A stretch of DNA of 64,000 nucleotides from Medicago truncatula. Its lineage: Eukaryota > Streptophyta > Magnoliopsida > Fabales > Fabaceae. Under the pieces are notes generated by a model. It searched no databases. It was given only the letters and a program-made list of their open reading frames with translations, and was not told the DNA's origin. How positions within the stretch are numbered: the stretch's first letter is position 1; each line of letters begins with the position of its first letter. Below, in pieces: positions 18,627 through 64,000 of the stretch. The stretch is from the NCBI RefSeq assembly GCF_003473485.1, contig NC_053043.1:18168001-18232000 (forward strand), given 5' to 3'. The position numbers and the translations under genes are program-made.

Positions 18627-19269
18627 ATGACCATGACACCACCGACACCCCTAAAAAACTAAAAACATTTGAAGAAAATGGAAGAAAAAAGATGAAGTGA
18701 AGAATGAAGGTATTTGTTGAAGATAAAAGCCTATTTATAGCCTAAAATAAGTCCTAGGTCATTAGTACAATCAATGAAAACGTGTTAGTGGTTGTAACCG
18801 TCCCAACCTACATTAATGGATCCACACAAAAGAATCCAATGTTGAAGCTTTCCGGATTATACAGTCCAGAACTTCCTTAACCCTACAAGAAGTACCAACT
18901 TTTCCCTCGTTCACCAGTATCATATTAATCCGGAAAATATATTCCGGAAAACAAAGGTACACTCCGGATTATATTTTCCGGACTGCATTAGTGTCATGGC
19001 CGGTGGTTTGCACCACATGTTTTTGTCGGTGGTCAAGTCAAGAAAACGTGTTTTACCACATTTTTTGACTACATTTATGACCTCCCAACCGTTTTTTGAC
19101 CCACCCTCCCTATAAATAGCCTTCCAAACCCCACCATTTCTCACAACATCCTCTTCCACCCTCTCCTCCTCTTCTTCCTTCTACAACCATGGTTTTCCAT
19201 CTTTGACCTTTCATAGATAAGGGTCTCGTTGAAAACTTTCAAGGTTTGTATGAACGGTCAATGAGGATG

Positions 19270-21852: not shown

Positions 21853-23379
21853 CACATGAAGCATTGGGCCAATCCTTATTAAAACAATGATATGAATCAT
21901 GGTTTACAACTTAATTTGTAGTTTGCATAGCTCAGAGGATATCTAAGACACAGTCACATCAGTATAATCAACCACCACCGTATAAATTATCACCGCGAGG
22001 GCCTTCTTGCAACAACCACCACCGCATAAACCTCCTTCTAGAATATAACAAACAAAAAAAAGAGATGATAATAAATTAGATAGCAATGCAATTCAAAAAG
22101 TCATCGGATTACAAATAACCAAAAATCAAACTTAACAGATGCTCTTACTCTTATTCCAACCCCGAGTTTGAAAATTCCTGAACTGCAAAATCAACAAACC
22201 AAACCCCACACCAATCATATAACAATTACTTTGATTTTGTAAGAAGCCTAAAAAGCTATTGCAAGCTATTTTGTACAATAGAGGAATTGAATGGAAAGAA
22301 AGATGTGTGGTTAACCTTAGTCACAGAAAAGAGGAGGAGCAGCTAAAAATCCATTTGATTTTTCTTCTCAATGTTAACACAATAACAATGCTTCTATATA
22401 AACACAAAAATTAAATTAGAATGAAACAATTAAATCATTGTGGAGCCCTGTTTTTTACATACTTAATGAATTAATTAATTAAATCAATTCCATTGTAAGA
22501 TAAGCTAATAATTTTCGCATGGAGAGAGAAAACGCACTTGCAATTTTGAAGTGAGATGAAGAAGTCATGACCAAGTGTAACAACGAAGCCTATCTGCAAC
22601 TTTCTGGATAGAACCAACCCTTCCAGCTTCTTGGTGATAAATCCAACGACATAGTAGGAACCATCAGAGAAAGTGAGGCAATTTTATAAATAAAAAAAAA
22701 AAAAAAAAACTTCTATACAAACTCAAAAAAAGGGAAGAAAAAATAATAATTAGAATGAAACAATTACATAATGAAAGTGAAATAAACAAACATACCTGCA
22801 TATCCCCAAATCCACATTTCCATCAACAAAATCTACAATTTGTAAAATAAAGCTACAAATCAAAACATGGTGGAGAAAGAAAAAACATTGAAAATCATTG
22901 CATATATCATCATCTTACACAAATGATATTAGCAGATTCAGAAATTCTATGGGAGTTTAGACCAGTCAACCTCCAAGGATGCGAGTAACAAAATCTATTA
23001 GCAGAAGCAGCAGGAAATAATGATTTGTTTTGTTAAAAAAAAAAATAGGAGTGATTTGTTTTGTTCAAAAGAATAGGAGGGATTTGTTTCGTTCAAAAGA
23101 ATTGGGAATTTCTGCAATAAAATAGGAACAATTTGTTAATAGGAGTGATTTGTTTTTCTTTTTTTTAAGTTTATATGTTTAGTAGGAAACAATTTTTTTT
23201 TAAAAAAAAAAGGAGATTTCTGCAATTTGATATTTTAAACATGGGTAATACAGTAAAAGCAAGCACTGAATTTAAGTTAAATTAGGGCAACAATTAGCAT
23301 TCGGGTTAACTTTAATAAATAAAAGATAAAAGATAATATATTAGGGTAAATGAGTTGAGGAAGTGAGGAAAAAATTATG
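21853..23379. other. Non-coding, possibly Helitron body
   Basis: No gene is recognised. Several A-rich tracts and a local repeat of TAGGAGTGATTTGTTTTGTTCAAAAG (23029-23160) are present. This could be the captured or decayed interior of the Helitron whose 3' end is at 20329. Confidence 0.35.
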
Positions 23380-36345: not shown

Positions 36346-37143
36346 ATGCTACTAAGTCTAAGAACTTGTTCACCACTTTCCCTCACATTCTCACCATTCA
36401 AACAAGCAAAAAAACTCTCCACATCATTCAAACCCTACCATCAATCTCCACCGTCCAGATCCCAATCTTCAATCAAGATGTCCTCTACTTCCCAAGGTGT
36501 AGAGCATATTGTACTTTTCAAAGTCAAAGAAAACACAGAATCATCAAAAGTTAACACCATGATCAATGAGCTTCAAAATTTAGTTACAATTGAACAAGTT
36601 CGCCACCTCACCTTTGGTCCAATTCTAAACAATAATGAACACACCACATCAACTATACCTTTTTCAGATCTTCGTTACACTCATTTGTTGCATAGTCGTT
36701 ATGACTCAAAGGAGGATCTTCAAATATACAACGCTCACCCTACCCACCTCAACGGCGTAAGAAACTTCGCACTCCCTATTCTCGACGACCTCTTAGTCAT
36801 CGATTGGATTGCGGGGGAAGTTGCTCTTCCCCCGCATCCTTCACCGGGGACTGCTTTTCGTGTGAGTTTCTTGAAACTCAAGGACGAAAAGAACGGTGAA
36901 GTTAAGGAGGAGGTTTTTCGGGCTATCCAAGGTATCAAGGAGAGTGTTGGAGGAGTAAGTTATGTCTCTTACGGCGAAAATATATCGCCGGAGAGGGCGA
37001 AGGGCTTCACCATTGCTTCCCTAGTCGTTTTTCCGGGACGGGAGGAGTTGGACCGTGTGGACCCCAGTGAGGGTTTGATTAAGGTTAAGGAGCATTTGGA
37101 AAGTGTGCTTGTGGTTGATCATGTGGTTCCATTATGGAAGTAG
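36346..37143 (+). CDS. UP3: Stress-response A/B-barrel (Dabb) domain protein, UP3-like
   Basis: An intact single-exon gene of 265 residues with two Dabb domains. The first is at about residues 52-155 (VEHIVLFKVKENTESSK, then HPTHLNGVRNFALPILDDLL) and the second at about 167-264 (FRVSFLKLKDEKNGEVKEEV, VVDHVVPLWK). Plant two-domain Dabb proteins are dimeric, stress-associated and of unclear biochemistry. The first 44 residues have no acidic residue and many Ser, Thr, Lys and Arg, like a chloroplast transit peptide. A second ATG at 36478 (residue 45, MSSTSQGVEHIV) would give a protein without it, so two products are possible. The C terminus (LWK) is not a classic peroxisomal signal. A TATA box lies upstream and AATAAA downstream (37287). 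The closest named relative I recognise is Arabidopsis UP3; orthology is inferred. Confidence 0.9.
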   Translation: MLLSLRTCSPLSLTFSPFKQAKKLSTSFKPYHQSPPSRSQSSIKMSSTSQGVEHIVLFKVKENTESSKVNTMINELQNLVTIEQVRHLTFGPILNNNEHTTSTIPFSDLRYTHLLHSRYDSKEDLQIYNAHPTHLNGVRNFALPILDDLLVIDWIAGEVALPPHPSPGTAFRVSFLKLKDEKNGEVKEEVFRAIQGIKESVGGVSYVSYGENISPERAKGFTIASLVVFPGREELDRVDPSEGLIKVKEHLESVLVVDHVVPLWK

Positions 37144-45800: not shown

Positions 45801-46104
45801 GATTTGTACAAACAAATTGAAAAGACTCAGAGACAAACACAGGGATTAAAATGGGTTCCACTGCAGGAAATGACCAAAATACCCTTTTGTATGATTTTTG
45901 AAATAAAATGCAAGAAAATGTAACGCGACGTTTCAGAGAGTTCTTAGATGACTTGTAATGCAAGAAAAGACAGACAGAGGCAGTAAAATATGTTTTTAAA
46001 AAGAGAGTAGAGATTCAGAGAAAAATAACAGAGAATTGACAAACATCAGTGTTAAAAGAGAAATCTTGAACGAGTATTTTTAGGTCCAAAATCAGGGTAT
46101 AACA
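42848..46104 (-). mobile_element. Solo LTR (C) of an Ogre-like retrotransposon, 3257 bp
   Basis: Read on the minus strand it starts TGTTATACCCTGATTTTGG (46104) and ends ..CGCGATAACA (42848), matching LTR A at 59618-62939 over its whole length. Exact 5 bp repeats ATGTT lie at 42843-42847 and 46105-46109. No primer-binding site or polypurine tract adjoins it, so it is a solo LTR left by LTR-LTR recombination. It sits 4 bp inside the end of LTR B. A TATA-like CTATAAATATAAAC on the minus strand (about 45420-45433) marks the LTR promoter. Confidence 0.88.
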
Positions 46105-47146
46105 ATGTTATCGCGATTTTCGGGTGTCAAGTCATTAATTATGCTTGAACCTTTCAATCTTTGATATTCTCTATTTTTTCTTGGGAAGGGCAAAATTGAG
46201 AAAAAACCCTTAGATTCTAAGTTCGGGGGTCGTTTTCACTACGGGAAGGTGTTAGGCACCCGCGGTGACTATAGTACTCTATAGGAGCCGTTTTCTTAGT
46301 TTATGTCTACGCTTTATTTTTAATGCTATTTGTGAAAAAGGAAATTTATTTATGTTAAGAATGGGGGGAAGAAAGTGTTTGAGGTTTTATTTTAGTGGAC
46401 TTGGAGAGGTTTTGACCTCATGCCTACATACCCATTTAAGGGATCAAACTCCATGTAGTTCTCTCTCAAAAAAAGCTTTTTGTGTGTTTGGTTGATTTTA
46501 ATTTTTGTTGGAAAATGGTTTTGAAGAAAAGAAAGAGGCCTTAAAGGCATAAGAGAAGAAAATGGTGAATGGTTGGTTCAATTGTTATTAAAAAAGTCTA
46601 AGTAGGGATTAGGATTCATTTGGATTTGTTTAAGAAAATAAAGGAAAAAAAATCAATGGAGTTTTGACTCCAAGGTTTGTTTGGAAAAATTTGAGTGATG
46701 GAATTGATTTATTATTTTTTGTGAAAATTGGCATTTGTCTAAAAATCGCGTTTCCTAAGCATACATCTAAACGGTAATCATGCAACGTGTGTGCGTGTCG
46801 GTGCTTGTGTCGGTGTACATCACTTATAGTGTCCATAGTCCTTTACATTGAGTCCTAAATACATGCTATAGTCTTGCAAGGAATTAAAAAAAAAGAACTA
46901 ATCTATCTAAAATTATTACAAACCCAATTGATATAGAAATGAATAGAAAAATGATGCCAAAACTATGGGATGAATGAAATGTGAGATGAAATGGTTAGTA
47001 TCATAAGACATAAAAATAGTAGAAAGGTAAACAAAATTGAATAGAATAGCAAGAGAGAGAAAAAAAGTAATGAAATGAAATAAAGTGGCAAAATATACCT
47101 AAAATTGGTTATGACACTTAGACATGCATAATGACCTATAATCCCC
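46105..47146 (-). mobile_element. Partial 3' LTR of Ogre-like element B
   Basis: The minus-strand LTR end ..CGCGATAACA is at 46106. The LTR continues to the right until CCCC at 47143-47146, where it switches to the + strand LTR A. The first ~530 bases are almost identical to 63467-64000 (one difference noticed) and differ from LTRs A and C near the GCGGTGACTATAGTACTC phrase. So 46106 and 63467 are the two LTRs of one element, B. Confidence 0.85.
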
Positions 47147-48220
47147 TTTAACATTGCTATAATGAGGGGATTATAGGTCATTATGCATGTCTAAGTGTCA
47201 TAACCAATTTTAGGTATATTTTGCCACTTTATTTCATTTCATTACTTTTTTTTCTCTCTTGCTATTCTATTCAATTTTGTTTACCTTTCTACTATTTTTA
47301 TGCCTTATGATACTAACCATTTCATCTCACATTTCATTCATCCCATTGTTTTGGCATCACTTTTCTATTCATTTCTATATCATTTGGGTTTGTAATAATT
47401 TTAGATAGATTAGTTCCTTTTTTAATTCCTTGCAAGACCATAGCATGTATTTAGGATTCAATGTAAAGGACTATGGACACTATAAGTGATGTACACCGAC
47501 ACAAGCACCGACACAAGCACCGACACGCACACACGTTGCATGATTACCGTTTAGATGTATGCTTAGGAAACGCGATTTTTTAGACAAATGCCAATTTTCA
47601 AGAAAAATAATAAACCAATTCCATCACTCAAATTTTTCCAAACAAACCTTGGAGTCAAAACTCCATTGATTTTTTTTTCTTTTATTTTCTTAAACAAATC
47701 CAAATGACTCCTAATTCCTACTTAGACTTTTTTTAATAACAATTGAACCAACCATTCACCATTTTTCTCTCTTATGCCTTTAAGGCCGCTTCCTCTTCTT
47801 CAAAACCATTTTCCAACAAAAACTAAAATCAACCAAACACACAAAAAACATTTTTTGAGAGAGAACTACATGGAGTTTGATCCCTTAAATGGGTATGTAG
47901 GCATGAGGTCAAAACCTCTCCAAGTCCACTAAAATAAAACCTCAAACACTTTCTCCCCCCCATTCTTCACTCAAATAAAACTTCTTCTTTAATAAGTAGG
48001 CAATAAAAATAAAGCGTAGAAATAAACTTAGGAGAACGGTTCTTATGGAATACCATAATCGTTCCGGGTGCCTAACACCTTCCCGTAGCGAAAGCGACCC
48101 CCGAACTTCGAATCTAAGGGTTTTTCTCAATTTTGCCCTTCCCAAGAAAAAATAGAGAATATCAAAGATTGAAAGGTTCAAGCCTAATTTATGACTTGAC
48201 ACCCGAAAATCGCGATAACA
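47143..48220 (+). mobile_element. Truncated 5' LTR of Ogre-like element A
   Basis: This is the last ~1.08 kb of LTR A, ending ..CGCGATAACA directly before the primer-binding site. It differs from the 3' LTR by roughly four substitutions, a 12 bp tandem-unit difference (ACCGACACAAGC) and one base in an A run, implying a recent insertion. The first ~2.2 kb of the LTR is missing because of the junction at 47143-47146. Confidence 0.9.
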
Positions 48221-48242: not shown

Positions 48243-48940
48243 CACTTTTAGCGGGTCACGCCTAGTTTTCCTTAGTTTATATTTACGCTTTGTTTTATTG
48301 CTTACATATTTGAATACTTGTTTATTTTCATTTGACGTGTGGGGTGAGAATATCAAAAAGTCCTATACCCGGGCTGAGTGAACTTATGAATAGGTAGAGA
48401 TATAATCGACAATTCGATCCGAGGGTTGCCTCGTGTATTGGGTTATGCGATCAATCTCACATAGCTGAGGCATTTTGGAAGTAATATTGTCGGCGTGTGT
48501 TGTCATGCTTAGGCACTTTGCTTTCAATTGTTCGACGATGCTATGGACGGTAGTTACCAAACCCATCCCTGGCCTTTTTTAGGACGTAGTGCGGTGGCTA
48601 AACCGAGTGTTGTCTCGAGTTTTAGTCGTCACGCGATACTACACTCAAGCTAGACCTTCTTGCGAATAAACATGGAACGGACGTTGTCCCGTGCTACCAT
48701 GATATACGTAAGAGAGGTTGCAGTTTGGGAACTTGATTAGAACCTTGGTTACTATTATCCTAAACTTTAGTTTACCGGGCACCGTGTCCGCCCGTGGCTC
48801 CTCAGCTTTAATCTCAACCCTCCATGTTTTCTCTGTAATTGAAAAAAACAATCATGCATACATGCATTCATGCATAAATTTTTTCTCATGCATTCATCGA
48901 AGGATTGGACAAATTAAAAAGCTTTGTAAACATTACAGGT
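48243..48940 (+). other. Leader of element A
   Basis: Non-coding sequence between the primer-binding site and ORF1. About 510 bases of it recur in reverse at 62940-63466 as the leader of element B. Confidence 0.75.
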
Positions 48941-50377
48941 ATGAAGAAGACTAAATCCTACAAGTTCAAGGAGGTTGATTTGGTTAGTTTGAGAGAGTTG
49001 GCACTCAAGGTGAAGAATCAAACAGGTTTCCGACTCCGATATGGTGGTTTGCTTACTATTCTCCGGACTAATGTTGAAGAGAAGCTCGTGCACACTCTAG
49101 TGCAATTCTATGACCCGAGTTTCCGTTGCTTCACTTTCCCGGATTTCCAGTTGGTCCCTACTCTTGAGGCTTATTCCCACTTATTGGATTCACCTATAGC
49201 CGAGAAGACGCCTTTCACCGGTCCCGGGGCTTCTCTTACTCCTCTGGTTATTGCTAAGGATCTCTATCTCAAGACTTCCGATGTCTCCAAGCATCTTACT
49301 ACTAAGTCTCACATCCAAGGGTTCACTTCCAAGTATCTACTTGAGCAAGCTAATCTCGAAACTACTTGTCAGGACGCACTCGAGGCTGTTCTTGCATTGC
49401 TTATCTATGGGCTCATTCTCTTCCCGAATCTCGACAACTTTGTGGACATGAATGCTATTGAGATCTTCCATTCTAGGAATCCGGTTCCTACCCTGCTAGC
49501 TGACATGTATCATGTTATCCATGACCGAACTCTCAAAGGTCGTGGGTATATCCTTTGCTGCGTGCCTCTCCTATATAGGTGGTTTATTTCTCACCTTCCG
49601 AGCTCCTTCCATGATAACTCGGAGGATTGGTCCTACTCACAGCGGATGATGGCTCTCTCTCCTAACGAGGTGGTCTGGATCACTCCCGCCGCTCAGGTTA
49701 AGGAAATTATCACTGGTTGTGGAGATTTTCTCAATGTACCTCTTCTTGGTACCCGTGGGGGAATCAACTACAATCCGGAGCTTGCTATGAGACAGTTTGG
49801 GTTCCCTATGAAGACAAAGCCCATCAATCTTGCCACATCTCCGGAGTTCTTCTATTATTCGAACGCCCCCACCGGACAAAGGGAGGCTTTCACAAGGGCT
49901 TGGTCTAAGGTCCGTAGGAAGAGTGTAAAGCATTTGGGTGTGAGATCTGGTATTGCTCATGAGGCCTATACTCAGTGGGTAATAAACCGAGCCGAAGAGA
50001 TTGGTATGCCATACCCTGCTATAAGACATGTGGCTGCATCTGCTCCATCTATACCTTTACCTCTACCTCCCACAACTCAGGAGATGTATCAGGAGCATCT
50101 GGCCATGGAAAGTCGTGAGAAACAAATGTGGAAAGCCCGATACAATGAGGCTGAGAATCTAATCATGACTTTGGATGGTAAGGATGAGCAGAAGACTCAT
50201 GAGAACCTGATGTTGAAGAAGGAATTGGTTAAGGTCCGAAGGGAACTTGAAGAAAAGGATGAGCTACTTATGCGGGACTCCAAGAGAGCCAGAGGACGAC
50301 GCAACTTCTATGCTAGATACTGCGGTTCGGATTCGGAGTCTGAGTCTGAGGATCATCCCACCACTTCCTATGCTTGA
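48941..50377 (+). CDS. Ogre ORF1 protein (DUF7745-like), function unknown
   Basis: ATG 48941 (MKKTKSYKFKEVDLVSL) opens a 478-codon frame. In-frame codons upstream of it have no ATG. The protein resembles the ORF1 found before gag in Ogre elements. Recognisable stretches are FRLRYGGLLTILRTNVEEKL, FYDPSFRCFTFPDFQLVPTL, FTSKYLLEQANLE, LIYGLILFPNLDNFVDMNAI and LLADMYHVIHDR, then CCVPLLYRWFISHLP. The last ~100 residues form a Glu/Lys-rich coiled coil, followed by an arginine patch (KRARGRRNFYARY) and an acidic SDSESESEDH tail. Its role in the element's life cycle is not known. The frame is fully open, with no damage seen. Confidence 0.85.
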   Translation: MKKTKSYKFKEVDLVSLRELALKVKNQTGFRLRYGGLLTILRTNVEEKLVHTLVQFYDPSFRCFTFPDFQLVPTLEAYSHLLDSPIAEKTPFTGPGASLTPLVIAKDLYLKTSDVSKHLTTKSHIQGFTSKYLLEQANLETTCQDALEAVLALLIYGLILFPNLDNFVDMNAIEIFHSRNPVPTLLADMYHVIHDRTLKGRGYILCCVPLLYRWFISHLPSSFHDNSEDWSYSQRMMALSPNEVVWITPAAQVKEIITGCGDFLNVPLLGTRGGINYNPELAMRQFGFPMKTKPINLATSPEFFYYSNAPTGQREAFTRAWSKVRRKSVKHLGVRSGIAHEAYTQWVINRAEEIGMPYPAIRHVAASAPSIPLPLPPTTQEMYQEHLAMESREKQMWKARYNEAENLIMTLDGKDEQKTHENLMLKKELVKVRRELEEKDELLMRDSKRARGRRNFYARYCGSDSESESEDHPTTSYA

Positions 50378-50636: not shown

Positions 50637-52103
50637 GTGGCTCGTGCTCGGAAAGTTTACGAACCAGACAGAATACACCGGACAAGACTCTACAGAAAGA
50701 AGAATTCGGCAGCCATGGAAGAGGAAAATGCTCAGCTCCGTACCGAATTAGCTTCTCTGAGGGAAGAATTGGCTAAGGCCAATGATACCATGACTGCTCT
50801 GCTAGCCGCCCAGGAACAATCAACCACAGCTATCCCTATAGCTACAAGTGTGATCTCAACTGCATCTACTGATGCCCGCTTCGTTATGCCAACTGGGTTC
50901 CCTTATGGACTTCCACCGTTTTTCACTCCTAGTACTGCAGCTGGCGTTTCTGGTACTGTCAATAATGGCCAGAGGGACGAACCCTGTCTCTGTCAATACC
51001 ACCTTGCCTCAGGCAACGGCCACTCTGGATCAATTGAGCTATCGGGGAACTCCCTTGGGAAGGAGCACCCTTCTGGTTAAAGCCTTCGACGGATCCCGTA
51101 AGAACATTCTTGGGGAGATAGATCTGGCAATAACTATCTGTCCCGAAACCTTTCTGATCACGTTCCAGGTCATGGACATCAATGCTGCTCAGCTACCTCC
51201 GTCGTACACGTATGCGCAATACTCTCAGCATCCCTTCTTTCCACCATTCTATCATCAGTATCGTTTGCCATCGGGTCAACCTCAGGTACCCGTTAATGCC
51301 GTCGTCCAACGAATGCAACAACAGCCTCCAGCTCAACAACGACAGCAGCAACAGGCTAGACCTACCTTTCCTCTGATACCAATGTTATATGCTGAATTAC
51401 TCCCGACTCTACTTCTCAAAGGGCGCTGCACAACCAGACAGGGCAAGCCTCCACCTGACCCGTCACCTCCCAAGTTCCGTTCGGACCTCAAGTGTGATTT
51501 CCATCAAGGCGCTCTGGGTCATGATGTCGAAGGATGCTACGCGTTGAGGTACATTGTAAAAAAACTCATAGACCAAGGAAAATTGACCTTTGAGAATAAC
51601 GTCCCGCATGTCCTCGACAATCCTCTTCCGAATCACGCTGCTGTAAACATGATTGAGGTATATGAGGAAGCTCCCAGACCGGACGTTCGTAACGTTGCAA
51701 CTCCTCTGGTGCCACTACACATCAAGTTATGCCAAGCCTCTCTATTTGACCATGATCATGCCAGTTGCCCAGAATGCTTCCATAATCCTTGGGGTTGCTA
51801 CATTGTTCAGAATGACATCCAGAGCCTGATGAACGACAATTATCTGACTGTGAATGACATCCAAGAAGGACAAGCTGCTGGCTGGGGCAAGTTAATACAA
51901 CTCCTTGAGAATAAGCACAAAGAGGGTCTCGGATATTCCCCAACTTCAGGAGTCTCCACAGGAACCTTCTACAGTGATGGGTTTGTCAATGCAATTACTG
52001 AAAAGGCGCCTGGATTTGATCCTAGGCCTATGTTTGTTATACCAGGAGGCATTGCGAGAAATTGGGATGCCATTATCATTCCTTCAATCATGCATGTTTC
52101 CGA
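50637..52103 (+). pseudogene. Rearranged gag/protease ORF of element A
   Basis: An N-terminal gag piece (50637-~50970: MARARKVYEPDRIHRTRLYR, then a Glu-rich coiled coil and FPYGLPPFFTPS) runs into a different frame that stays open to 52107. That frame reads first a protease-like piece (LLVKAFDGSRKNILGEIDLA..FQVMDIN). It then returns to gag (QLPPSYTYAQYSQHPFF, Gln-rich linker, knuckle CDFHQGALGHDVEGC, LCQASLFDHDHASCPECF) and ends with the post-protease segment (GWGKLIQLLENKHKEGLGYS). The retroviral-type gag core and most of the protease are missing and the order is scrambled. The product cannot be a normal Gag-Pro. The junctions look like template switches. Confidence 0.75.
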
Positions 52104-52395
52104 GTAATGTGTCTTGTTGCTTAAGTGTTTTGTTTTTCAAAAATAACAATCCTCTCGCTCTGCCCGAAGCGACAGTGATATTTTCTATAAGGGCATGTTT
52201 GTTTCGGCATCGCCGTTATTAATAAAAATTGTCGTTTCTTTCACGACTTTTTTTTTTTTTTTTTTTTTTTTTAGTGCTTTTTTCCTTGGAAATAATGGTA
52301 ATGCCAGAAAAAACCAAAAAATCTGTATTTTCTTATTAATTTAAAAAAATCTGCATAAAAACCTCTTTATAAAATCATCCAACCATTTTACGCAG
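52104..52395 (+). other. Ogre intron upstream of pol, 292 bp
   Basis: The donor GA|GTAATG at 52104 and acceptor TTTTACGCAG| at 52395, with a 23-T tract inside. Splicing turns ..SE + stop into ..SE-LSHNKPVEH and keeps the frame exactly (GA + A = GAA), removing the TAA at 52105. An intron at this position is a known Ogre trait. Confidence 0.8.
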
Positions 52396-53061: not shown

Positions 53062-55244
53062 TGTAACGCCCACTTTCGTTTAATCGTTATTTAATCGAGT
53101 TTAGGCAATTATATTATAATTATATAATATATGCATGATTTTGATATGTTTTGATGATTTGTGGTGAATTTAGTGATTTGATTGATGACGTGATAAGTTA
53201 TGAGTTTTGGAGGATTTGATTATGATATGAGAATTATTTTATTGTTAAATAAAATAAAGATTTGAAAAATATTTAGTTGAGGGCTGTTTTGATATTTTAG
53301 ATAGTTTTGGGGGAGAAAGTGAAATAAGATAAGTTATTAAGGGGAGATATAAAAGAATAGACCTAGGTTTAGAAAAAACACTTTGTACGTGAAAACTTTT
53401 GGAAAAGGGAGAAAAAGCTTAGAGAGGAGCAAGAGACCAAAGAGGGCTGCGATTTTCTTCATAACCAGGTAAGGGTGGGACTAATAACTCAGTAACATTA
53501 GTGAATGTAATTCTGATGATTAGTTAGCAAGAATTAGGGTTAGATGGAGAAAACGAAAACTAGGTCAAATCCCTAAAAATTGAGAATAAACGGTGGAAAT
53601 TGGTTAGATTGATGTAGAAAGTATTCCTGGACCTTAGATAATGTTTAGGACAAACTTTGGAATCAGTATCAGACTTAGAACCATGTTAATCGATGAATTT
53701 TTGTGATTTTAGGAAGCCTGGCCGTAGCGACATTCATCGCTCGCCACAACGAGCTATGATCCTCGCCTCGCGAGTGATGAGCTGCATCGCTCGCCACGCG
53801 AGCCTTTCCCTTCGCCTCGCGAGTTGTTTGGTTCAACTCGCCATGGCGAGCAACCCTTCCTCGCCTCGCGAGCTTAGGCAGAGTGCATGTCATATTTTGT
53901 AGTTTCGACTTTTTAGTTGGACCTTGAGTGCCTTTAAGTGCCTAAACATACCTAGAGATGATTAGGAATGATTTTAGGACAGGATTGAACCCAAAACAAC
54001 ATTAGTTGGGAATTTGAGTGGTACTCGCCATGGCGAGTGAGAACTCTCGCCTCGCGAGCAAGTCCAGAACGTAGCTGTTGAGTGGTTGTGCGATCTGTGT
54101 CGCACCTTTTGATCAAGAGTGAACCCCTAATTGGTAATGAGACCTAATGATAACGTTTAATGCAATCGGTAAAGCTATTAAGTTATGTTGATATTATTTG
54201 AGCATGATTAAGGTATTATGCAATATGTAAGATATAATTGAAATGATTATGATTCTATTGAATTGCTGTTGATATATTGATATCTCCCTGTTGTTATGTG
54301 ACTTGACTATGCCGCTGCTGTTATTTAACTGAGTATGCAATGTTTATTTATGAATGCAAAGAAAATGATGACGTTTCGCTTCAAGTTATTGAATGCACAT
54401 GGTTACGATGATTACGATGTTTTGTTCATATGTGTCCATGCATAGCATATCATTGAGCTTAGTCCTCACCACGAATATTAGGAGCTTTGTCCTCCGCACG
54501 TTTTATAGGAGCTTTGTCCTCCGCACGATTAAAGTATATTTATACTTATGATGACGATTGGTACCACATGCATATACGGAGTCTAGGAGCATTGTCACAC
54601 TGTCATGTCTATTATGCTATGTTGATGATGATTGATTATGTGATTACGTGATAACGTTATATTGTTGAAGATGATTAATTATGTGATTACGTGATAGATG
54701 CTTATTAAAGATACAATGATGATTATGGTTTAAATTGATTATAATCAAGATTAATTAGGATGTTAATCCATGATTCTTTATTGCATTGATTAATGTTATT
54801 CTGTTATGAAATCTCACCCCTTCTGTTTGAATGTTACCTCGACCGTGGGTAACGTGCAGGTGATCGAGCTTAGTGTGCTGAGTCCGTCGTGAGTGGCCTT
54901 GCCTTCACTGTGTCGTCTAGGTCGCTCTGATACGTAACGGGATGGGGCTTTATGATTATGCATGCTTCATTCTCTTACGTGACTATCATGTTTATGTTTT
55001 ATGATGTTGAACATTTATTATGTTTTGTTAAGTTGATTTAACTCATTTGAGATAATTTGATGGGGCCTACGTGCCAAATTGATTTATGGATTATGAACTA
55101 AATTCCGTTGCAATGTTTACGACTTTTGGTTAAATTATTACTTAACTGTTTTGGATTACGTTTCATGTGATATCCCGTTGTATACGATGCTTACTCTGAT
55201 AAATGTTTTAAGAAATTTGTATATTGGGAAAACGGGGTGTTACA
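53062..55244. mobile_element. Solo LTR of another gypsy element, 2183 bp
   Basis: It begins TGTAACGCCC and ends GGGTGTTACA. The 5 bp repeat CATCA flanks it (53057-53061 and 55245-55249). Removing it and one CATCA rejoins the RNase H reading frame of element A (..QGHH|IPFTAR..). No coding sequence is inside. It contains a cluster of palindromic CTCGCC..CGCGAG words (53739-54060) and repeated GGAGCTTTGTCCTCCGCACG (54480-54535). The TGTAAC../..GTTACA ends fit chromovirus-type LTRs; the family is inferred. Confidence 0.88.
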
Positions 55245-55249
55245 CATCA

Positions 55250-56057
55250 CATTCCTTTTACCGCCCGGATTCTGTTCGAATGTACAAACAATATGGTTGA
55301 GTATGAAGCATGTATCTTTGGGATCGAGGAAGCAATTGACATGAGAATCAAACACCTCGACATCTATGGAGACTCTGCACTCATCATCAACCAGATAAAG
55401 GGTGAATGGGAGACCCACCATGCCAAGTTGATTACTTATCGTGATTATGCGAGGCGTTTGCTGACATATTTTACCAAGGTTGAGCTACACCATATCCCTC
55501 GTGATGAGAACCAAATGGCTGATGCTCTTGCTACTCTATCCTCCATGTTTCGAGTAAACCATTGGAATGATGTGCCAATAATCAAAGTGCAACGCCTTGA
55601 AAGACCTTCACATGTGTTCGCTATTGGGGATGTGATCGATCAGGCTGGTGAAAATATGGTTGACAATAAACCCTGGTATTACGACATCAAACAGTTTTTG
55701 CTAACCCGAGAGTATCCGCCGGGTGCTTCCAACAAAGACAAGAAGACCCTGAGAAGATTGGCCAGTAGATTCCTGTTAGATGGAGATATTCTGTACAAAA
55801 GAAACTATGACATGGTATTATTAAGATGTGTTGATGAACACGAAGCGGAGCAGTTAATGCATGATGTACATGACGGTACCTTCGGGACCCATGCTACAGG
55901 GCATACTATGTCAAGAAAGTTGCTACGAGCAGGTTACTACTGGATGACCATGGAGCATGATTGCTACCAGCACGCCAGAAAGTGCCACAAATGTCAAATC
56001 TATGCTGATAAGATTCATGTGCCTCCGCACGCTCTCAATGTTATTTCATCCCCATGA
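55250..56057 (+). pseudogene. Second RNase H (rest) and integrase zinc-binding domain of element A
   Basis: The translation continues the archaeal-type RNase H (NNMVEYEACIFGIEEAIDMR with the catalytic Glu, LDIYGDSALIINQIKGEWET with Asp, DENQMADALATLSSMF with Asp). It then gives the integrase HHCC zinc finger (HDVHDGTFGTHATGHTMSRK, ARKCHKCQIYAD). A TGA at 56055-56057 (SSP*PFSMWGID, Trp codon changed) interrupts the frame just before the integrase core, which continues in phase. Confidence 0.87.
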
Positions 56058-56921
56058 CCGTTCTCAATGTGGGGCATCGACATGATTGGAAGAATTGAAC
56101 CGAAGGCTTCAAATGGTCATCGTTTCATCTTAGTGGCAATTGACTACTTCACCAAGTGGGTTGAAGCAGCATCTTATACCAATGTGACCAAGCAAGTGGT
56201 AGCTAAGTTCATCAAGAACAACATCATCTGTCGATATGGTGTTCCCAGCAAGATCCTTACCGACAATGGTACCAACCTGAACAACAATGTGGTGCAAGCT
56301 CTTTGTGAAGAATTCAAAATTGAGCATCATAACTCTTCTCCCTATAGACCTCAGCTGAATGGTGCTGTTGAGGCCGCCAACAAGAATATCAAGAGGATTG
56401 TCCAGAAAATGGTAACCACTTACAGGGACTGGCATGAGATGTTACCCTATGCTCTGCATGGCTACCGTACTACAGTGCGCAGTTCAACCGGGGCAACCCC
56501 TTTCTCTCTTGTATATGGTATGGAAGCAGTTCTTCCTTTGGAAGTGGAGATCCCATCTCTCCGTGTGATCATGGAAGCAAAGTTATCCGAGGCTGAATGG
56601 TGCCAAAGCCGGTATGATCAGTTGAATTTGATTGAGGAAAAACGTATGGATGCCATGGCTCGTGGACAGTCATATCAAGCAAGAATGAAAACTGCCTTTG
56701 ACAAGAAAGTCCATCCTCGAGAATTCAAGGTAGGAGAACTTGTATTGAAAAGGAGGATAAGCCAGCAACCCGACCCAAGGGGCAAGTGGATGCCTAACTA
56801 TGAAGGTCCTTATGTTGTCAAGAAGGCCTTCTCCGGTGGTGCTTTAATTCTTACACACATGGATGGTGTAGAACTTCCAAATCCTGTGAATGCTGATATA
56901 GTCAAGAAATATTTTGCCTAG
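56058..56921 (+). CDS. Integrase core and C-terminal domain of element A
   Basis: The frame is in phase with the preceding pol segment after one stop codon. The DDE catalytic residues are in place: WGIDMIG, ILTDNGTN and, after PYRPQLNGAVEAANKN, the Glu. The C-terminal part holds the YGMEAVLPLEVEIPS block and the GPYVVKKAFSGGALIL region near the end. It ends at NADIVKKYFA with a normal stop. An integrase would insert the element's cDNA in the nucleus. As it lies behind a stop codon in this copy, it is not expected to be made as part of pol. Confidence 0.87.
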   Translation, partial: PFSMWGIDMIGRIEPKASNGHRFILVAIDYFTKWVEAASYTNVTKQVVAKFIKNNIICRYGVPSKILTDNGTNLNNNVVQALCEEFKIEHHNSSPYRPQLNGAVEAANKNIKRIVQKMVTTYRDWHEMLPYALHGYRTTVRSSTGATPFSLVYGMEAVLPLEVEIPSLRVIMEAKLSEAEWCQSRYDQLNLIEEKRMDAMARGQSYQARMKTAFDKKVHPREFKVGELVLKRRISQQPDPRGKWMPNYEGPYVVKKAFSGGALILTHMDGVELPNPVNADIVKKYFA

Positions 56922-56943
56922 AAATATGAAAAGAACAGCGTGG

Positions 56944-57130
56944 TAGGTCGAAAACCCGAAAGGGCGGCCTAGGCAAAAATGCGCTTCCCGGTGGATCGAA
57001 AACCCGAAAGGGCGGTCCAGGCAAAAATAAGGGACAAAAAAAATATATATGAAAAAGCTCGCTGAGATTGTACACAACTCAGGCAAGAATGAGCGTCTCG
57101 ATGAGCCGAAAACCCGGAAGGGCGGTTCAT
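56944..57130 (+). repeat. GNRA-capped stem-loops 1-3
   Basis: Stem-loops at 56944-56971 (TAGGTCG/CGGCCTA, loop GAAA), 56992-57019 (TGGATCG/CGGTCCA, GAAA) and 57101-57130 (ATGAGCCG/CGGTTCAT, GGAA). Each is outer stem, AAAA bulge, CCC-GNRA-GGG. Each is followed by GGCAAAAAT or GCAAAAAT. A degenerate relative (CTGAG..CTCAG, no GNRA) is at 57062-57082. Confidence 0.85.
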
Positions 57131-57675
57131 GCAAAAATGAGATTGAAACAAAAGGCAAGTAACTATATCTGGCCAACCACCATTCCCTTGGGGCATCTGC
57201 AGCTGTTAATGACCATCTTCATCAAAAGCTCTTATGCTTGCGAATTCAAAGTTTCTAGGAAATGTCATGATTGCTGTGTTCAATGTACCACCAACCAATA
57301 AAATTACCATTCTCCAAGCTTTGTAAATCCGTGGAGTCACGCCTTCGGCTGACCACCACTCTTATACATCAAATTGAGCCTGTGCTTTTGTTTAAAACTC
57401 TATTTTCTTTTTACTTTCAAAGTTATGTACAAAAACATTTTCCTTCTATTTTTAATAATGACAAATGCTTGAAACAAACATCTTAAAAATTGAAAAAGTT
57501 TTTTGAAAAAAGCAAACCTGAGCAACAGGGTACATTCAAACGAAACATGCATGAGCGAGTGTATGTTGGTGTCTATTTCAATATATGTTACAAGCAGATT
57601 CTTCTCCAGGATAGTCTGTGGTCAATGGCAAGAATGAAAAAACAGAATGAAAATGCATGAAAATGAATAGGCTCG

Positions 57676-57818
57676 CTAAGTTGAAAACCCGGAAGGGCGG
57701 CTTAGGCAAAAATGAGCTAACCGCTGGATTGACCACCCGAAAGGGTAGTTCAGGCAAAAATGGGGCATTGAAAAGAATTGATTTCCCCGGTGGATCGAAA
57801 ACCCGAAAGGGCGATCCA
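57676..57818 (+). repeat. GNRA-capped stem-loops 4-6
   Basis: Stem-loops at 57676-57705 (CTAAGTTG/CGGCTTAG, GGAA), 57724-57753 (CTGGATTG/TAGTTCAG, GAAA) and 57791-57818 (TGGATCG/CGATCCA, GAAA), with the same CCC-GNRA-GGG apex and the same GGCAA(A/G)AATG tail as the first three. Confidence 0.85.
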
Positions 57819-58390
57819 GGCAAGAATGGGATGCAAAAAAAATGAATGATGAAAATTGAGAAAATGACATGCAAAAAGCATTGACCACAGGTGCGACATC
57901 CACGGTACACCCAGCATTGAAATGCTCGGCAATGACAGCATTATCCCCAGTAGAGTCTTCCGAGATTCTATCCCCAGCAAGTTGCATAGCTACCTGCCCT
58001 CAGCCATGGTTCTGATACGTCTCCCAACGACGTTATCTCCAAAGAGGATTTCCAGGAATGTGTAACATAGCACGAGCCACTACGTGCCCAATACTCCAAT
58101 GTCTTGTTTGTCTCTGCGAAACTGTGTCTACAAACTGCCAACAGTCATGCATTACAAGCATTCATACATGCATAATCATGCATATTACGTGCCCATGCAT
58201 TTAATGAAACTGTTATATCATCCATGCATATCGCATTTCCAATGTCAACATCAGTCTCAATTCAATACTCATGTCAGGTTCTCTGTCAAAACCTTGTGAG
58301 CCAATAATATTGGTCAATTTCTACCTTTCAAATCAAATCGACATCAAGTCAATTTCAACCTATATTTTGTCAAAAAAAAAAAACCAATCC

Positions 58391-59345
58391 CCAGTGAATA
58401 TGTTTCCGTTTGGTCAAGTGGCTAGTTCAAGTCCAAGAACAGCTTGTACCTATCAATTTGCTTATGTTATCGGTCGAGTGCCCAGCTCAATCCAAGAGCA
58501 GCTTGTACCTATCAATATGTTTCCGTTTGGTCGAGTGGCTAGTTCAAGTCCGAGAACAGCTTGTACCTATCAATTTGCTTATGGTATCGGTCGAGTTACT
58601 AGTTCGAATCCAAGAACAGCTTGTACCTATCAGTTTGCTTATGTTATCGGTCGAGTGCCCAGCTCAATCCAAGAGCAGCTTGTACCTGTCAATATGTTTC
58701 TGTTTGGTCAAGTGGCTAGTTCAAGTCCAAGAACAGCTTGTACCTATCAGTTTGCTTATGTTATCGGTCGAGTTACCAGTTCAAATCCAAGAACAGCTCG
58801 TACCTGTCTATGTGTCTATGATTTTGGTCAAGTGCCCAACTCAATCCAAGAGCAGCTTGTACCTATCAATATGTTTCTGTTTGGTCAAGTGGCTAGTTCA
58901 AGTCCAAGAACAGCTTGTACCTATCAATTTGCTTATGTTATCGGTCGAGTTACCAGTTCGAATCCAAGAACAACTTGCACCCGTTTACTTTTCAATGTTA
59001 TCGGTCGAGTTACCAGTTCGAATCCAAGAACAACTCGTACCTGTCTATGTGTCTATGATTTTGGTCAAGTGGCCAGCTCAATCCAAGAGCAGCTTGCACC
59101 TGCCTATTTGTCATTGACTCCGGTGGAGTAACCAGTTCGCATCCAAGAACAAGCTCGCACCTGTCTATTTGCCTTGCTTTCAGTCGAGTGACCAGTTCGA
59201 ATCAAGAACAACTCGTACCTGTCTGCCTTTTCTATGTCCCCGGTCGAGTGACCAGTTCGAATCCAAGAACAACTCGCACCTGTTTGTCTGCTTTTATTCC
59301 CGGTCAAGTGCCCAGCTCAATCGAAGAGCAGCTTGTACCCGTCAA
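58391..59345 (+). repeat. Minisatellite of ~57-60 bp units, ~15 copies
   Basis: Units begin GGTC(A/G)AGTG.. at 58412, 58472, 58529, 58589, 58649, 58706, 58766 and so on, ending near 59340. Each contains CCAAGA(A/G)CAGCTTGTACCT or a variant. Unit lengths are multiples of three, so two frames stay open for 235-286 codons, but the product is just a repeat. Tandem repeats in this 3' position are a known source of satellite DNA in Ogre-type elements. Confidence 0.9.
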
Positions 59346-59604
59346 TTTGTTCCTAGTTTCCTATCTACCCTGTTATCTGTTATCGTGCCAATGTCTACCA
59401 ATCCCGCAATGGATACGACATCTTTTGTTAATTCCAGCTTTCGTTTGTCTCGCACTCATAATCCAAATGTTGCATGGCATTCATGATATTTGAAAATGTA
59501 CAAGCGTATTTTTACGTCCAAACACAGTGCAAATGTTAATATTTAAGTATCTTCGTCCCGTCAAGCCAAAGACTCCGTCTCTTGACCCTCCAGACAAAGA
59601 AACT

Positions 59605-59617
59605 TAAATAGGGGCAG
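59605..59617 (+). promoter_or_regulatory. Polypurine tract of element A
   Basis: AAATAGGGGCAGA abuts the 3' LTR start TGTTATACCC at 59618. It would prime plus-strand synthesis. Confidence 0.8.
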
Positions 59618-62600
59618 ATGTTATACCCTGATTTTGGACCTAAAAATACTCGTTCAAATTTCTTTTTTAACACTGATATTTGTCAATTCTCTGAATCTTT
59701 ATTCTCTTTTTAAAACATATTTTACTGCCTCTGTCCGTCTTTTCTTGCATTACAAGTCATTTAAGAACTCTCTGAAACGTCGCATTACTTTTCTCACATT
59801 TTATTTCAAAAATCATACAAAAGGGTATTTTGGTCATTTTCTGCAATGGAACCCATTTTAGTCCCTATGTTTGCCTCTGAGCCTTTTCAATTTGTCTGTA
59901 CAAATCATTGTTGAGTCTTTGTTTAAAAATCATTTCAAAATTGCATCTGAGTCAGTCTGAGTCAGTTTAGTCCCTAGGGGCATTTTGGTCTTTTCCTGTC
60001 AAAATTTCGGCAGAGAGGTATTTTAAAATACCTCATTTTTGTAGCTGGTTCATTTTAGTCCTTTTGTTAATTATATTTTTTTTTGGTTTCACTTTACGTT
60101 TTCTTCAAATTACCAATTTTAGTCCAATTTTATTTTTTTAATTGCATTTCAGTCCCAAACAGTTTATAAATTGCATTTTAGTCCAAAAATTCTTAAAATT
60201 ACTTTTTAGTCCTTTTTTTTTATATTGCAGTTTAGTCCTCAATTTCACTTTTTTGCAGAAAGGTCCAAGTCCAGATGGCAGCGCCTCATTGGTCCAAAAT
60301 TACACATGGCAGCCTATAAAAGGCGCATTCAATGCATAAGTCAGGAACCCATTCATTCCACGCCACTTCACCAAAAACAGAATCAATTTTTTCTCTCTCC
60401 ATTCAGTTAGATCAAAACAGAAAATCACAGAGAAATCACCAAGAACATTCATAGAACCCTAACTTTCCAAAACCGAAAATCAACACAGATTCAACCAAAT
60501 TCATCACGGTTCTCAGTGATTCGTCAAAGAATCATCATCATCGAACCAGATCCTCTGCAATTCAAGGTGCGAATTCGCCATTGGCAAACTCAAGCACCGA
60601 TCACAGAGAATCAGCGAAGAGGAAAAGGGAAAGAAAATTCGAACCAGTGAAGAAGAAGAAAGAATCAAACCGGCCAGAACCGATTAATTTTCGGATCCAC
60701 GCAGCAAAATCAACAAAGCAGAGCCAAGAATCAAGCTTTTTTTTTCTGAAGAATCTCGTATAATCTCCAAACAAAACTCAGGTAAAACTCAAATTTCATC
60801 TTTCTTTCTCAAAAATATCAACAAACACGAATCAGTTATAGATCTGCAAAGTTCCAAAGATTTCATTCAACAAAACACTAAAAAGAATCAAGAAAAATCT
60901 TTTTCAAAACCGTGAACAAAAGTGTAGATCTACAACGATTCAAACCTTGCATGAAGAAACTAGTACCGGATTCGTGTTTAGAACGAAAAAGGATTTCCAA
61001 AAGTGTAAAAAATTTTGAAAACGGAGAAAGTTGTTCAACTTCCGGCGGCGGCGCCGCCACCCTTGGGGCGGCCGACCACCACGCCGGAGGAACAAGTTTC
61101 ACCGGAGAAGATGAAGTTCATCTTCATTTTCCAGAATCCGGCGAGGGAGGAGAAGAGAGAAGTGAGAGCTTCTCTCACTAGGATGAGAGAAGAGAGAGAA
61201 AGGCAAGAGAAGAATGAAAAAACCGGTGCTCCTATGCTTATATAAGCCAGTGAACCGGACCGGTCCAAGACCGGTCCAATCCCCTTTGTTCCTGGCCGTT
61301 GGATCTAGGGTTTCCTTCCCTGGATCAATCCAACGCTCCTGGTGAATCCGGATCTTTTGGTTGGTTTGGGCTTTGCCTTTTTCGTTTTTTTTGCTATTTT
61401 CCTGCTATCTGCACCCTGCTTTTTTGCTAATTGAACCTCTGCATGCTCAATCTTTTCTCTAAAAATTCCTAAAAAATTGTTATATGTTTCTTAATACATT
61501 TTAACACTTTTGTGATATTTTCCAGTGGTTTAAAAAATGATAAAAATGTGTGTTTTTTTTTCTTGATTAATTTTGTGTTTGATCTAAGTTTGTGTATTTT
61601 TGTGGTATATTTTCTCATAAAATGTTGGCATGTAATGTGGATGATTGGTGTGTAATTTCATGATGAATATGTTGCTGATCATGTGTATGTCTTGCTGATT
61701 GTGGATGTAGATTTTCATGTCTTTCTTGTTTTGCAAGCAATGTGGGTTTTTTATCAAGAAATAAAGTGCAAAATATCTTTAAAAAATGTGTCATGATTCT
61801 TGGCTTGAATATGTCCTATTTGTTCCCACATTATAGCTCAAAATCAAACCCCTTTAACATTGCTATAATGAGGGGATTATAGGTCATTATGCATGTCTAA
61901 GTGTCATAATCAATTTTAGGTATATTTTGCCACTTTATTTCATTTCATTACTTTTTTTTCTCTCTTGCTATTCTATTCAATTTTGTTTACCTTTCTACTA
62001 TTTTTATGCCTTATGATACTAACCATTTCATCTCACATTTCATTCATCCCATAGTTTTGGCATCACTTTTCTATTCATTTCTATATCATTTGGGTTTGTA
62101 ATAATTTTAGATAGATTAGTTCCTTTTTTAATTCCTTGCAAGACCATAGCATGTATTTAGGATTCAATGTAAAGGACTATGGACACTATAAGTGATGTAC
62201 ACCGACACAAGCACCGACACAAGCACCGACACAAGCACCGACACGCACACACGTTGCATGATTACCGTTTAGATGTATGCTTAGGAAACGCGATTTTTTA
62301 GACAAATGCCAAATTTCAAGAAAAATAATAAACCAATTCCATCACTCAAATTTTTCCAAACAAACCTTGGAGTCAAAACTCCATTGATTTTTTTTTCTTT
62401 TATTTTCTTAAACAAATCCAAATGACTCCTAATTCCTACTTAGACTTTTTTTAATAACAATTGAACCAACCATTCACCATTTTTCTCTCTTATGCCTTTA
62501 AGGCCTCTTCCTCTTCTTCAAAACCATTTTCCAACAAAAACTAAAATCAACCAAACACACAAAAAAACATTTTTTGAGAGAGAACTACATGGAGTTTGAT

Positions 62601-62939
62601 CCCTTAAATGGGTATGTAGGCATGAGGTCAAAACCTCTCCAAGTCCACTAAAATAAAACCTCAAACACTTTCTCCCCCCCATTCTTCACTCAAATAAAAC
62701 TTCTTCTTTAATAAGTAGGCAATAAAAATAAAGCGTAGAAATAAACTTAGGAGAACGGTTCTTATGGAATACCATAATCGTTCCGGGTGCCTAACACCTT
62801 CCCGTAGCGAAAGCGACCCCCGAACTTCGAATCTAAGGGTTTTTCTCAATTTTGCCCTTCCCAAGAAAAAATAGAGAATATCAAAGATTGAAAGGTTCAA
62901 GCCTAATTTATGACTTGACACCCGAAAATCGCGATAACA
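59618..62939 (+). mobile_element. Full 3' LTR of element A, 3322 bp
   Basis: It starts TGTTATACCCTGATTTTGG and ends ..CGCGATAACA. TATAAAA at 60315 (AGCCTATAAAAGGCGC) followed by a CT-rich transcript start region suggests the promoter. It contains a tandem ACCGACACAAGC repeat near 62200-62240. Short frames inside (such as those reading MPFPRKNREYQ) recur wherever the LTR recurs and are not genes. No TSD can be checked because the left side is deleted. Confidence 0.9.
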
Positions 62940-63466
62940 CCAAGGTTCTAATCAAGTTCCCAAACTGCAACCTCTCTTTCGTATATCATGGTAGCACGGG
63001 ACAACGTCCGTTCCATGTTTATTCGCAAGAAGGTCTAGTTTGAGTGTAGTATCGCGTGACGACTAAAACTCGAGACAACACTCGGTTTAGCCACCGCACT
63101 ACGTCCTAAAAAGGCCAGGGATGGGTTTGGTAACCACGGTCCATAGCATCGTCGAACAATTGAAATCAAAGTGCCTAAGCATGACAACACACGCCGACAA
63201 TATTACTTCCAAAATGCCTCAGCTATGTGAGATTGATCGCATAACCCAATACACGAGGCAACCCTCGGATCGAATTGTCGATTATATCTCTACCTATTCA
63301 TAAGTTCACTCAGCCCGGGTATAGGACTTTTTGATATTCTCACCCCACTCGTCAAATGAAAATAAACTAGTATTCACATATGTAAGCAATAAAACAAAGT
63401 GTAAATATAAACTAAAGAAAACTAGGCGTGACCCGCTAAAAGTGTCCCCAGTGAAGTCGCCATTTC
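62940..63466 (-). mobile_element. Leader and primer-binding site of element B
   Basis: Reverse complement of the A leader (about 48221-48750), ending with the reversed primer-binding site at 63445-63462. It begins exactly at the end of LTR A, so A is inserted in B's leader. Confidence 0.85.
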
Positions 63467-64000
63467 TGTTATCGCAATTTTCGGGTGTCAAGTCATTAAT
63501 TATGCTTGAACCTTTCAATCTTTGATATTCTCTATTTTTTCTTGGGAAGGGCAAAATTGAGAAAAAACCCTTAGATTCTAAGTTCGGGGGTCGTTTTCAC
63601 TACGGGAAGGTGTTAGGCACCCGCGGTGACTATAGTACTCTATAGGAGCCGTTTTCTTAGTTTATGTCTACGCTTTATTTTTAATGCTATTTGTGAAAAA
63701 GGAAATTTATTTATGTTAAGAATGGGGGGAAGAAAGTGTTTGAGGTTTTATTTTAGTGGACTTGGAGAGGTTTTGACCTCATGCCTACATACCCATTTAA
63801 GGGATCAAACTCCATGTAGTTCTCTCTCAAAAAAAGCTTTTTGTGTGTTTGGTTGATTTTAATTTTTGTTGGAAAATGGTTTTGAAGAAAAGAAAGAGGC
63901 CTTAAAGGCATAAGAGAAGAAAATGGTGAATGGTTGGTTCAATTGTTATTAAAAAAGTCTAAGTAGGGATTAGGATTCATTTGGATTTGTTTAAGAAAAT
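63467..64000 (-). mobile_element. 5' LTR of element B, cut by the window edge
   Basis: The minus-strand LTR end is adjacent to B's primer-binding site. It is nearly identical to 46106-46639 and runs off the window. Confidence 0.88.

Follow-up and report, generated by a model that had tools for sequence, protein, structure and literature searches.

We analyzed a stretch of 64,000 nucleotides of Medicago truncatula DNA (contig NC_053043.1 of assembly GCF_003473485.1, positions 18,168,001 to 18,232,000 of the forward strand), hereafter the window, that carries a long terminal repeat (LTR) retrotransposon whose organisation fits the Ogre group of Ty3/gypsy elements. An extra open reading frame (ORF) upstream of gag and an LTR of several kb are criteria of the Ogre lineage (Ty3/gypsy, Tat), and here we found an ORF with the DUF7745 domain and a 3' LTR of 3.3 kb (Table 1). 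The gag of the element gave no Pfam match and is assigned by position only. A further mark of the lineage is an intron that separates gag-pro from RT-RH-INT. The subject of this report is the untranslated stretch of 2.7 kb ahead of the 3' LTR (56922-59618), which begins with an array of small hairpins, most of them with GNRA loops, directly 3' of the integrase ORF.

Table 1. Units of the hairpin array and features of the Ogre element that carries it (positions in the window)
Feature	Positions	Strand	Description
Hairpin 1	56937..56985	+	P1 AGCGTG/TGCGCT; P2 TAGGTCG/CGGCCTA; AAAA bulge; CCC-GAAA-GGG; GCAAAAAT strand; 73.2 bits
Hairpin 2	56986..57034	+	P1 TCCC/GGGA across GCAAAAATAA; P2 TGGATCG/CGGTCCA; GAAA loop
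Unit 7	57057..57094	+	P1 GCTC/GAGC; P2 CTGAG/CTCAG; GCAAGAAT strand; non-GNRA tip TACA
Hairpin 3	57095..57143	+	P1 GTCTCG/TGAGAT; P2 ATGAGCCG/CGGTTCAT; GGAA loop
Hairpin 4	57670..57718	+	P1 GGCTCG/TGAGCT; P2 CTAAGTTG/CGGCTTAG; GGAA loop; opens second cluster
Hairpin 5	57720..57764	+	P1 CCG/TGG only; P2 CTGGATTG/TAGTTCAG; bulge ACCA; GAAA loop
Hairpin 6	57784..57832	+	P1 TCCC/GGGA; P2 TGGATCG/CGATCCA; GAAA loop; GCAAGAAT
5' LTR	47140..48220	+	last 1.08 kb; truncated at inverted LTR piece
Extra ORF1	48905..50377	+	DUF7745, E=1.1e-120; upstream of pol domains
RNase H-like and integrase zinc-binding ORF	55224..56057	+	RVT_3 (RH or aRH) then Integrase_H2C2 in one ORF
Integrase core ORF	56067..56921	+	rve, domain match; stop ends 15 nt before hairpin 1
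Tandem repeats	58352..59350	+	177 bp; 3' of the array, within the 3' untranslated region
3' LTR	59619..62939	+	about 3.3 kb; TGTTATAC...CGCGATAACA; ends read by eye

The array is made of two clusters (56937-57143 and 57670-57832) with 526 nt between them. An earlier reading of the same letters, hereafter the original prediction, had described in it six GNRA hairpins of a shared design, and these are indeed present: the core pattern has six matches in the window, all on the + strand, against 0.00 expected from 100 shuffles, the GNRA loop is closed by a helix in all six, and no further CCC-GNRA-GGG was found on either strand of the 64 kb. The core design stands, but the unit as described was too short. 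Outside the stem that had been recognised (here P2) there is an outer stem, P1, which had been overlooked, and the units span 56937-57832. P1 encloses a constant GCAAAAAT strand. This stem is found, complete or in part, in all six hairpins: numbers 1, 3 and 4 have 6 bp of it, numbers 2 and 6 have 4 bp, and number 5 has only 3 bp. From the outside inward, the general unit has P1, then an asymmetric loop that contains the constant strand GCAAAANT, P2 of 7-8 bp, an AAAA bulge on one side and P3, a stem of 3 bp, capped across the sampled units by a mostly GNRA loop. The count of six holds for the GNRA units, but a seventh, non-GNRA unit (unit 7) had been missed. A covariance model of the other six hairpins, from which unit 7 was left out, recovered it at E=0.0061 with filters off; such a model was one of the checks proposed with the original prediction. 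Unit 7 retains P1, P2 and the constant strand and lacks the GNRA tip, reading TACG, TTCG, TACA or TAAA there across the copies read. Its P1 strand adjoins that of hairpin 3 without a gap, so that end-to-end stacking of the two units is possible.

The P2 stems of the six window hairpins differ in their letters and still form 42 of 42 pairs, the imperfect ones being 8 G.U and no A.C on the element's own strand, which bears out what had been said of the outer stems and of their G-U pairs. When the 3' arms were reassigned among the hairpins, 2 of 720 arrangements matched the real P2 pairing, because hairpins 2 and 6 share their 5' arm. P1 found by free search in the window alone was not decisive, with 282 of 5040 permutations equal to it, and folds of the whole clusters formed P1 in units 2, 7, 3 and 4 and not in 1, 5 and 6. 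Folding energy gave weak, non-discriminating evidence for single units (z between -0.12 and -2.67; the fragment of hairpin 4, clipped in P1, adopted another fold), and the clusters had z values of -2.97 (cluster 1) and -1.88 (cluster 2). The evidence for the predicted structure is comparative, not energetic.

We searched for other copies in the genome of the window, to which all our plant comparisons belong. The unit pattern with up to three mismatches has 5323 matches there (2739 plus 2584), and the reversed control has none. Twenty loci from the head of the match list, representing 15 distinct elements, form the family A sample. Their integrase is 95-99% identical to that of the window element and their units stand at matching positions, six of them in 17 loci, five in two and three in one. 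P1 of hairpin 5 reads CACCCCG (once CACCTCG) versus TGGGGCA in most other family A copies read. Such close copies are of little use for judging covariation, since the median pairwise identity of their coding ends is 0.967. A genome search for DUF7745 gave 118 scored matches from 931 candidates, and for 15 of the 118 we took 3-kb stretches located 5.5-9 kb downstream. An integrase of 78-86% amino acid identity and the hairpins occur together in ten of these stretches (family B). Their P1 stems (GCTC/GAGC, GTCTC/GAGAC, ATCCT/AGGAT and GTCCC/GGGGC) differ from those of the window, and so do their P2 stems, among them TAAGTCG/CGGCTTA, TGGGCTG/CGGCTCA and TAGATTG/CGATCTA, which are still paired. 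The DUF7745 ORF is also found three times in tandem, with a 3.64-kb period and one TAG in each, at C3:17097130, 17100770 and 17104410 (L048, L040 and L041), a tandem Ogre ORF.

The general array has a first cluster of three or four hairpins and, in most loci that are long enough, a second one of about three, 500-700 nt further on. In family B the second cluster is present in L061, L062, L074 and L075, and most other stretches run out within ~700 nt past their first unit. In 30 of the 34 loci measured (29 elements) a distance of 13-16 nt separates the pol stop from P1 of the first unit; it is 15 nt in the window element. In the other four (L056, L061, L062 and L074) the distance is 63-65 nt, and a deviant first unit is visible by eye at the usual place. 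That of L056, L061 and L062 shares a non-GNRA loop, AAAAGA, between CCC (TCC in L061) and GGG. Two variants of the pattern were also searched in the genome: one that required a purine as fourth base of the 3' arm had 2 matches only, and one in which both partners of the middle P3 pair were altered had 18, versus 11 in the reversed control, with no recognisable unit among them.

Twelve loci were retrieved out of 177 matches to a GYRA-loop pattern. Two of them belong to family B (L074 and L075), one to family A (L077), and nine to a pol-deleted group that we call C (L069-L073, L076 and L078-L080). The nine are colinear with L079 at 73-96% nucleotide identity (73% in L069), indicating one shared structure that was apparently multiplied with its deletion. 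By blastn on the same strand, ~52.5-56.4 kb of the window element is left unmatched in every one of them. Six of the nine match 52.1-52.5 kb, the stretch past the ORF 50872-52107, and all match from ~56.86-56.88 kb onward, four of them also matching earlier integrase pieces. The peptide at the start of L079 shares 47% identity with window 51364-51597 over 78 residues. The integrase remnant has stops in all five loci read (L069, L071, L072, L079 and L080) and aligns to that of family B with 75-84% identity and 68-148 gap positions per 300 nt. Cluster 1 of group C is 85-93% identical to that of family B, and its 18-60 gaps per 190 nt are mainly in the A-rich spacers. In the first unit of eight of the nine loci CCT...AGG replaces CCC...GGG, a two-sided change of P3, and in L070 a G-C pair has become U.G by changes on both sides (TAATTCG/CGGGTTA). 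The second cluster is found in eight of the nine. Besides, the array is kept in five loci (L069, L071-L073 and L079) in which no in-frame stop was found at the usual place. Retention of the array in pol-deleted copies, together with the two-sided changes, speaks for the RNA acting in cis during mobilisation. Group C merits its own description as a non-autonomous Ogre family with one large pol deletion.

In order to evaluate covariation we gathered 117 unit records through the core and the GCAAAA anchor and kept 109 of usual core and arm length, without duplicates, which gave 96 distinct trimmed rows. Because this rule used core and anchor and neither P1 nor P2, the set is biased for P3 and the loop and unbiased for P1 and P2. 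P2 pairs form in 650 of 672 cells (315/322 in family A, 175/182 in family B and 160/168 in group C). Over the three, 113 P2 cells are G.U, 11 are A.C and 11 are other combinations, and the excess of G.U over A.C points to the plus-strand RNA as the folding molecule. The inner five pairs of P1 form in 212/230, 128/130 and 114/120 cells of A, B and C, respectively. A MAFFT alignment of 44 units hand-chosen for diversity (A5) had a covariation score for P2 and P3 of 0.449 versus 0.283 when shuffled (0/500 as high), and slid registers reached at most 0.175; P1 was left uncounted on A5 because the tail lengths differ. Even in P3 one pair of A5 (24-30) is CG in 41 units and UA in 3. The model-fitted alignment A4 (50 matches, 37 distinct rows, all stems), which leans to structure, scored 0.457 versus 0.254 (0/500). 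In three alignments the score was above all 500 shuffles, and two-sided changes affected 56 cells in A5 and 86 in A4, numbers that none of 500 shuffles reached.

Such shuffles ignore relatedness, and for this reason we ran 400 simulations in which each column evolved anew, independently of the others, along a FastTree tree. The observed paired fraction was 0.918, against 0.742 on average and 0.860 at most in the simulations; a covariation significance test had been proposed with the original prediction. The top five of 820 column pairs were all helix pairs: P1:2 (E<=0.005), P2:5 (E<=0.035), the eighth P2 pair, P2:4 and P1:1. The claim that selection acts on the folded RNA gains support from this result, from the 5323 recurrences, from stems that differ between families and still pair, from wobbles that are mostly G.U on the element's strand, and from covariation above the shuffles. 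In the copies sampled we saw neither arms that vary without compensation nor hairpins confined to a single copy, the two outcomes named beforehand as contrary to it.

Judging from the sequence, the array is probably a domain of the Ogre genomic RNA that acts in cis from the 3' untranslated region (UTR). Variable parts that pair, constant parts that remain unpaired, location on the RNA strand of the element and survival amid decayed coding sequence are together the signature of such a domain. As the array is kept in copies that lack most of the enzyme genes, the RNA itself probably needs the hairpins to move, most likely at a step in which trans-supplied proteins recognise it in cis. The constant unpaired parts would be the contact surface, the stems would serve to present them, and several units per RNA may form a multivalent binding platform. 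As for the step, group C, the multivalence and the tetraloops lead us to favour, tentatively, a role in packaging or dimerisation in which Gag would recognise the array. Nuclear export of incompletely spliced RNA would be a close second, possible if less favoured, because Ogre RNA is partly spliced (according to the accessible text of PMC6317226 and PMC12786077). The position of the array after the stop suggests as third choice a shielding of the long 3' UTR from decay, which we think unlikely. It may even be, and we would give little credit to the scheme as a whole, that this is a multivalent repeat RNA domain, non-homologous to known export and packaging elements, whose GNRA loops and C-G receptors of adjacent stems join two genomic RNAs, coupling export, dimerisation and packaging and enabling the trans mobilisation of pol-deleted Ogre derivatives.

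Two readings of the step can be put in more precise terms. An export element would recruit through the hairpins a host export receptor for the unspliced, intron-containing Ogre RNA. The site between the last ORF and the 3' LTR favours it, and the constitutive transport element (CTE) of the Mason-Pfizer monkey virus likewise sits there; the CTE and the RNA transport element (RTE) export the unspliced RNA of simple retroviruses and of the intracisternal A-particle (IAP). No described family matched the array, Rfam being empty here at gathering scores and giving with permissive filters only sub-threshold matches in this region (E up to 5), and we hold this version to be rather unlikely. The other reading is that, in a transcript whose 3' UTR is long, the structure past the stop guards against nonsense-mediated decay or 3' nucleases. 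The 13-16 nt that separate the first hairpin from the pol stop in 30 of 34 loci and the 2.7 kb left untranslated before the 3' LTR would suit it, but the second cluster lies ~530 nt farther on and the array is also kept in the five group C loci without an in-frame stop found there; its probability seems low.

Other explanations deny the cis-acting domain altogether. The units could be hitch-hiking repeats, young tandem duplicates whose paired stems come from few founders, without selection. Actually, Ogre 3' UTRs are known for tandem repeats (accessible text of PMC7004042), a 105-nt stretch is common to clusters 1 and 2 with 81% identity, and in the close copies of family A the conservation of the hairpins (0.71-0.86) is no better than that of coding sequence and spacers (0.67-0.87, truncated copies included). 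However, the stems differ among units and families by two-sided changes beyond all shuffles, 113 G.U against 11 A.C are unexpected under a drift blind to the strand, and the tree-aware null was exceeded, all of which make this origin quite improbable. Inverted repeats in thousands of copies might also act as DNA, being protein-binding or recombination sites. A G.U on the + strand is an A.C mismatch in the hairpin of the - strand, so that a DNA role should not favour G.U; we rejected it as very improbable because of the G.U excess in P2 and of the constant unpaired parts present on one strand. Finally, hairpins in a plant transcript bring to mind precursors of small RNAs. A Dicer-like enzyme would need longer and less interrupted stems than these of 7+3 bp, which contain a bulge and an asymmetric loop; no microRNA family of Rfam matched at the array, and we rejected the microRNA precursor as barely conceivable. 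A coding origin of the array was rejected as well, since the continuation of the pol frame meets stops.

Several observations weigh against the cis-acting domain, starting with the comparison of copies from a single species and the family A conservation just mentioned. The GNRA loop is not universal. The original prediction gave it as always GAAA or GGAA, and this is true of the six window hairpins but not of other copies, where GAAAA, AAAA and AAAAGA also occur. Five of the 15 stretches taken downstream of DUF7745 (L054, L063-L065 and L068) have neither integrase nor hairpins. We had thought that they merely ended too soon, an explanation that failed on recheck and was withdrawn; L068 comes from a place where the DUF7745 ORF repeats every 3.6 kb. 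The second cluster is missing in L057, of family B, despite ~1.2 kb of room, and in the stretch of L078, of group C, where room also exists. Also in group C, the first unit of L079 has an A.C and that of L069 is without P3, the L079 peptide is called gag by position only, with no Pfam match, and the group may not yet have had time to lose the array. With regard to covariation, 42 of 96 rows form the sixth P1 pair, the fifth P1 pair is C.A in 12 cells, the count of pair types on A5 was not above the shuffles (500/500), only P1:2 and P2:5 among the helix pairs reached E<0.05, helix pairs outside the top five scored like background, and the tree-aware null is a purpose-written script, not R-scape.

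We found no description of the hairpin array in the openly licensed papers searched, nor the letters of the motif in any of them, in agreement with the original prediction, which knew of none in Ogre elements. The texts of PMC7004042, PMC6317226 and PMC2533021 contain neither the word 'hairpin' nor the term 'secondary structure', and a paper on enod40 (PMC10578108), going by its accessible part, was set aside as unrelated. The array is likely undescribed, although this is not proven. In the same region and the same lineage, Tat/Ogre elements have a 3' UTR with hypervariable tandem repeats (Macas et al., 2009, as cited in the accessible text of PMC7004042), and the window element also has its 177-bp repeat. 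Those repeats vary in sequence and monomer length, whereas the hairpins are short, interspersed, shared by families and covarying. Sireviruses, which are also LTR retrotransposons of plants, likewise have motifs outside the coding sequence that are conserved and repeated near their 3' end, namely multiple polypurine tracts, an inverted repeat at the polypurine tract and CGG-CCG boxes, one of them a stem-loop (accessible part of PMC2829016). They differ in being Ty1/copia, in boxes that are palindromes mainly in the LTR and in a stem-loop that includes the polypurine tract, as far as that part describes them.

The CTE, the RTE of IAP and the musD transport element (MTE) are likewise structured cis elements on unspliced retroelement RNA (for RTE and MTE, accessible text of PMC12786077). 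In contrast to them, the array is made of several small repeated units and has no Rfam fold or sequence match. Family B has GAAAA pentaloops, and the boxB of phage lambda is a hairpin with a GNRA-like pentaloop; the likeness is confined to the loop and we claim no relation. The packaging and dimerisation signals of retroviruses and retrotransposons are hairpins with purine-rich tetraloops, mostly near the 5' end. The array resembles them in having several hairpins with such loops in the genomic RNA, and it is kept in pol-deleted copies; unlike them, it lies 3' of pol. No relatives were found in the viral sequence collection scanned, and the sole match in a contig scan of genomes (L001) was bacterial, without the hairpin, and due to chance. 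A short, defined and covarying motif in thousands of copies is a concrete site to probe, to mutate and to use as bait, and a marker for locating non-autonomous derivatives. Ogre makes up 45% of the Lathyrus sativus genome (accessible text of PMC7004042).

Some other features of the window deserve mention. The sequence TGGCGACTTCACTGGGGAC follows the LTR and is a putative primer binding site matching tRNA-Arg. A purine-rich AGGGGCAG precedes the 3' LTR and was read by eye as a putative polypurine tract. In the accessible text of PMC2533021 the Ogre primer binding site is that of tRNA-Arg, and the M. truncatula family Mtr57/Ogre1 has LTRs of 3529 bp in an element of 18.8 kb; that of PMC6317226 places the second RNase H of Ogre (aRH) between RH and integrase. 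At 46104-46106, on the minus strand, there is an LTR-LTR junction with ...CGCGATAACA and TGTTATACCC... one base apart, an arrangement expected of two-LTR circles or of insertion into the tip of an LTR. From there to 48220 (46106-48220) runs a 2.1-kb palindrome of two inverted LTR ends, with arms 93% identical, that truncates the 5' LTR of the + element. At the other side, in 62940-64000, the + strand 3' LTR adjoins the internal 5' region and LTR of a minus-strand element, nested or rearranged, and 63467-64000 is 99.8% identical to 46106-46639. Farther from the element we found pieces of a MULE transposase (DBD_Tnp_Mut, MULE and SWIM) at 11445-14360 (-), a match to the precursor of MIR2587, a Medicago family, at 18546-18639 (-) with 102.5 bits, which was the one Rfam match at gathering scores, a direct repeat with 375-bp spacing and ~98% identity at 20728-21860, and an ORF with a stress-responsive A/B barrel (Dabb) domain at 36346-37143 (+).
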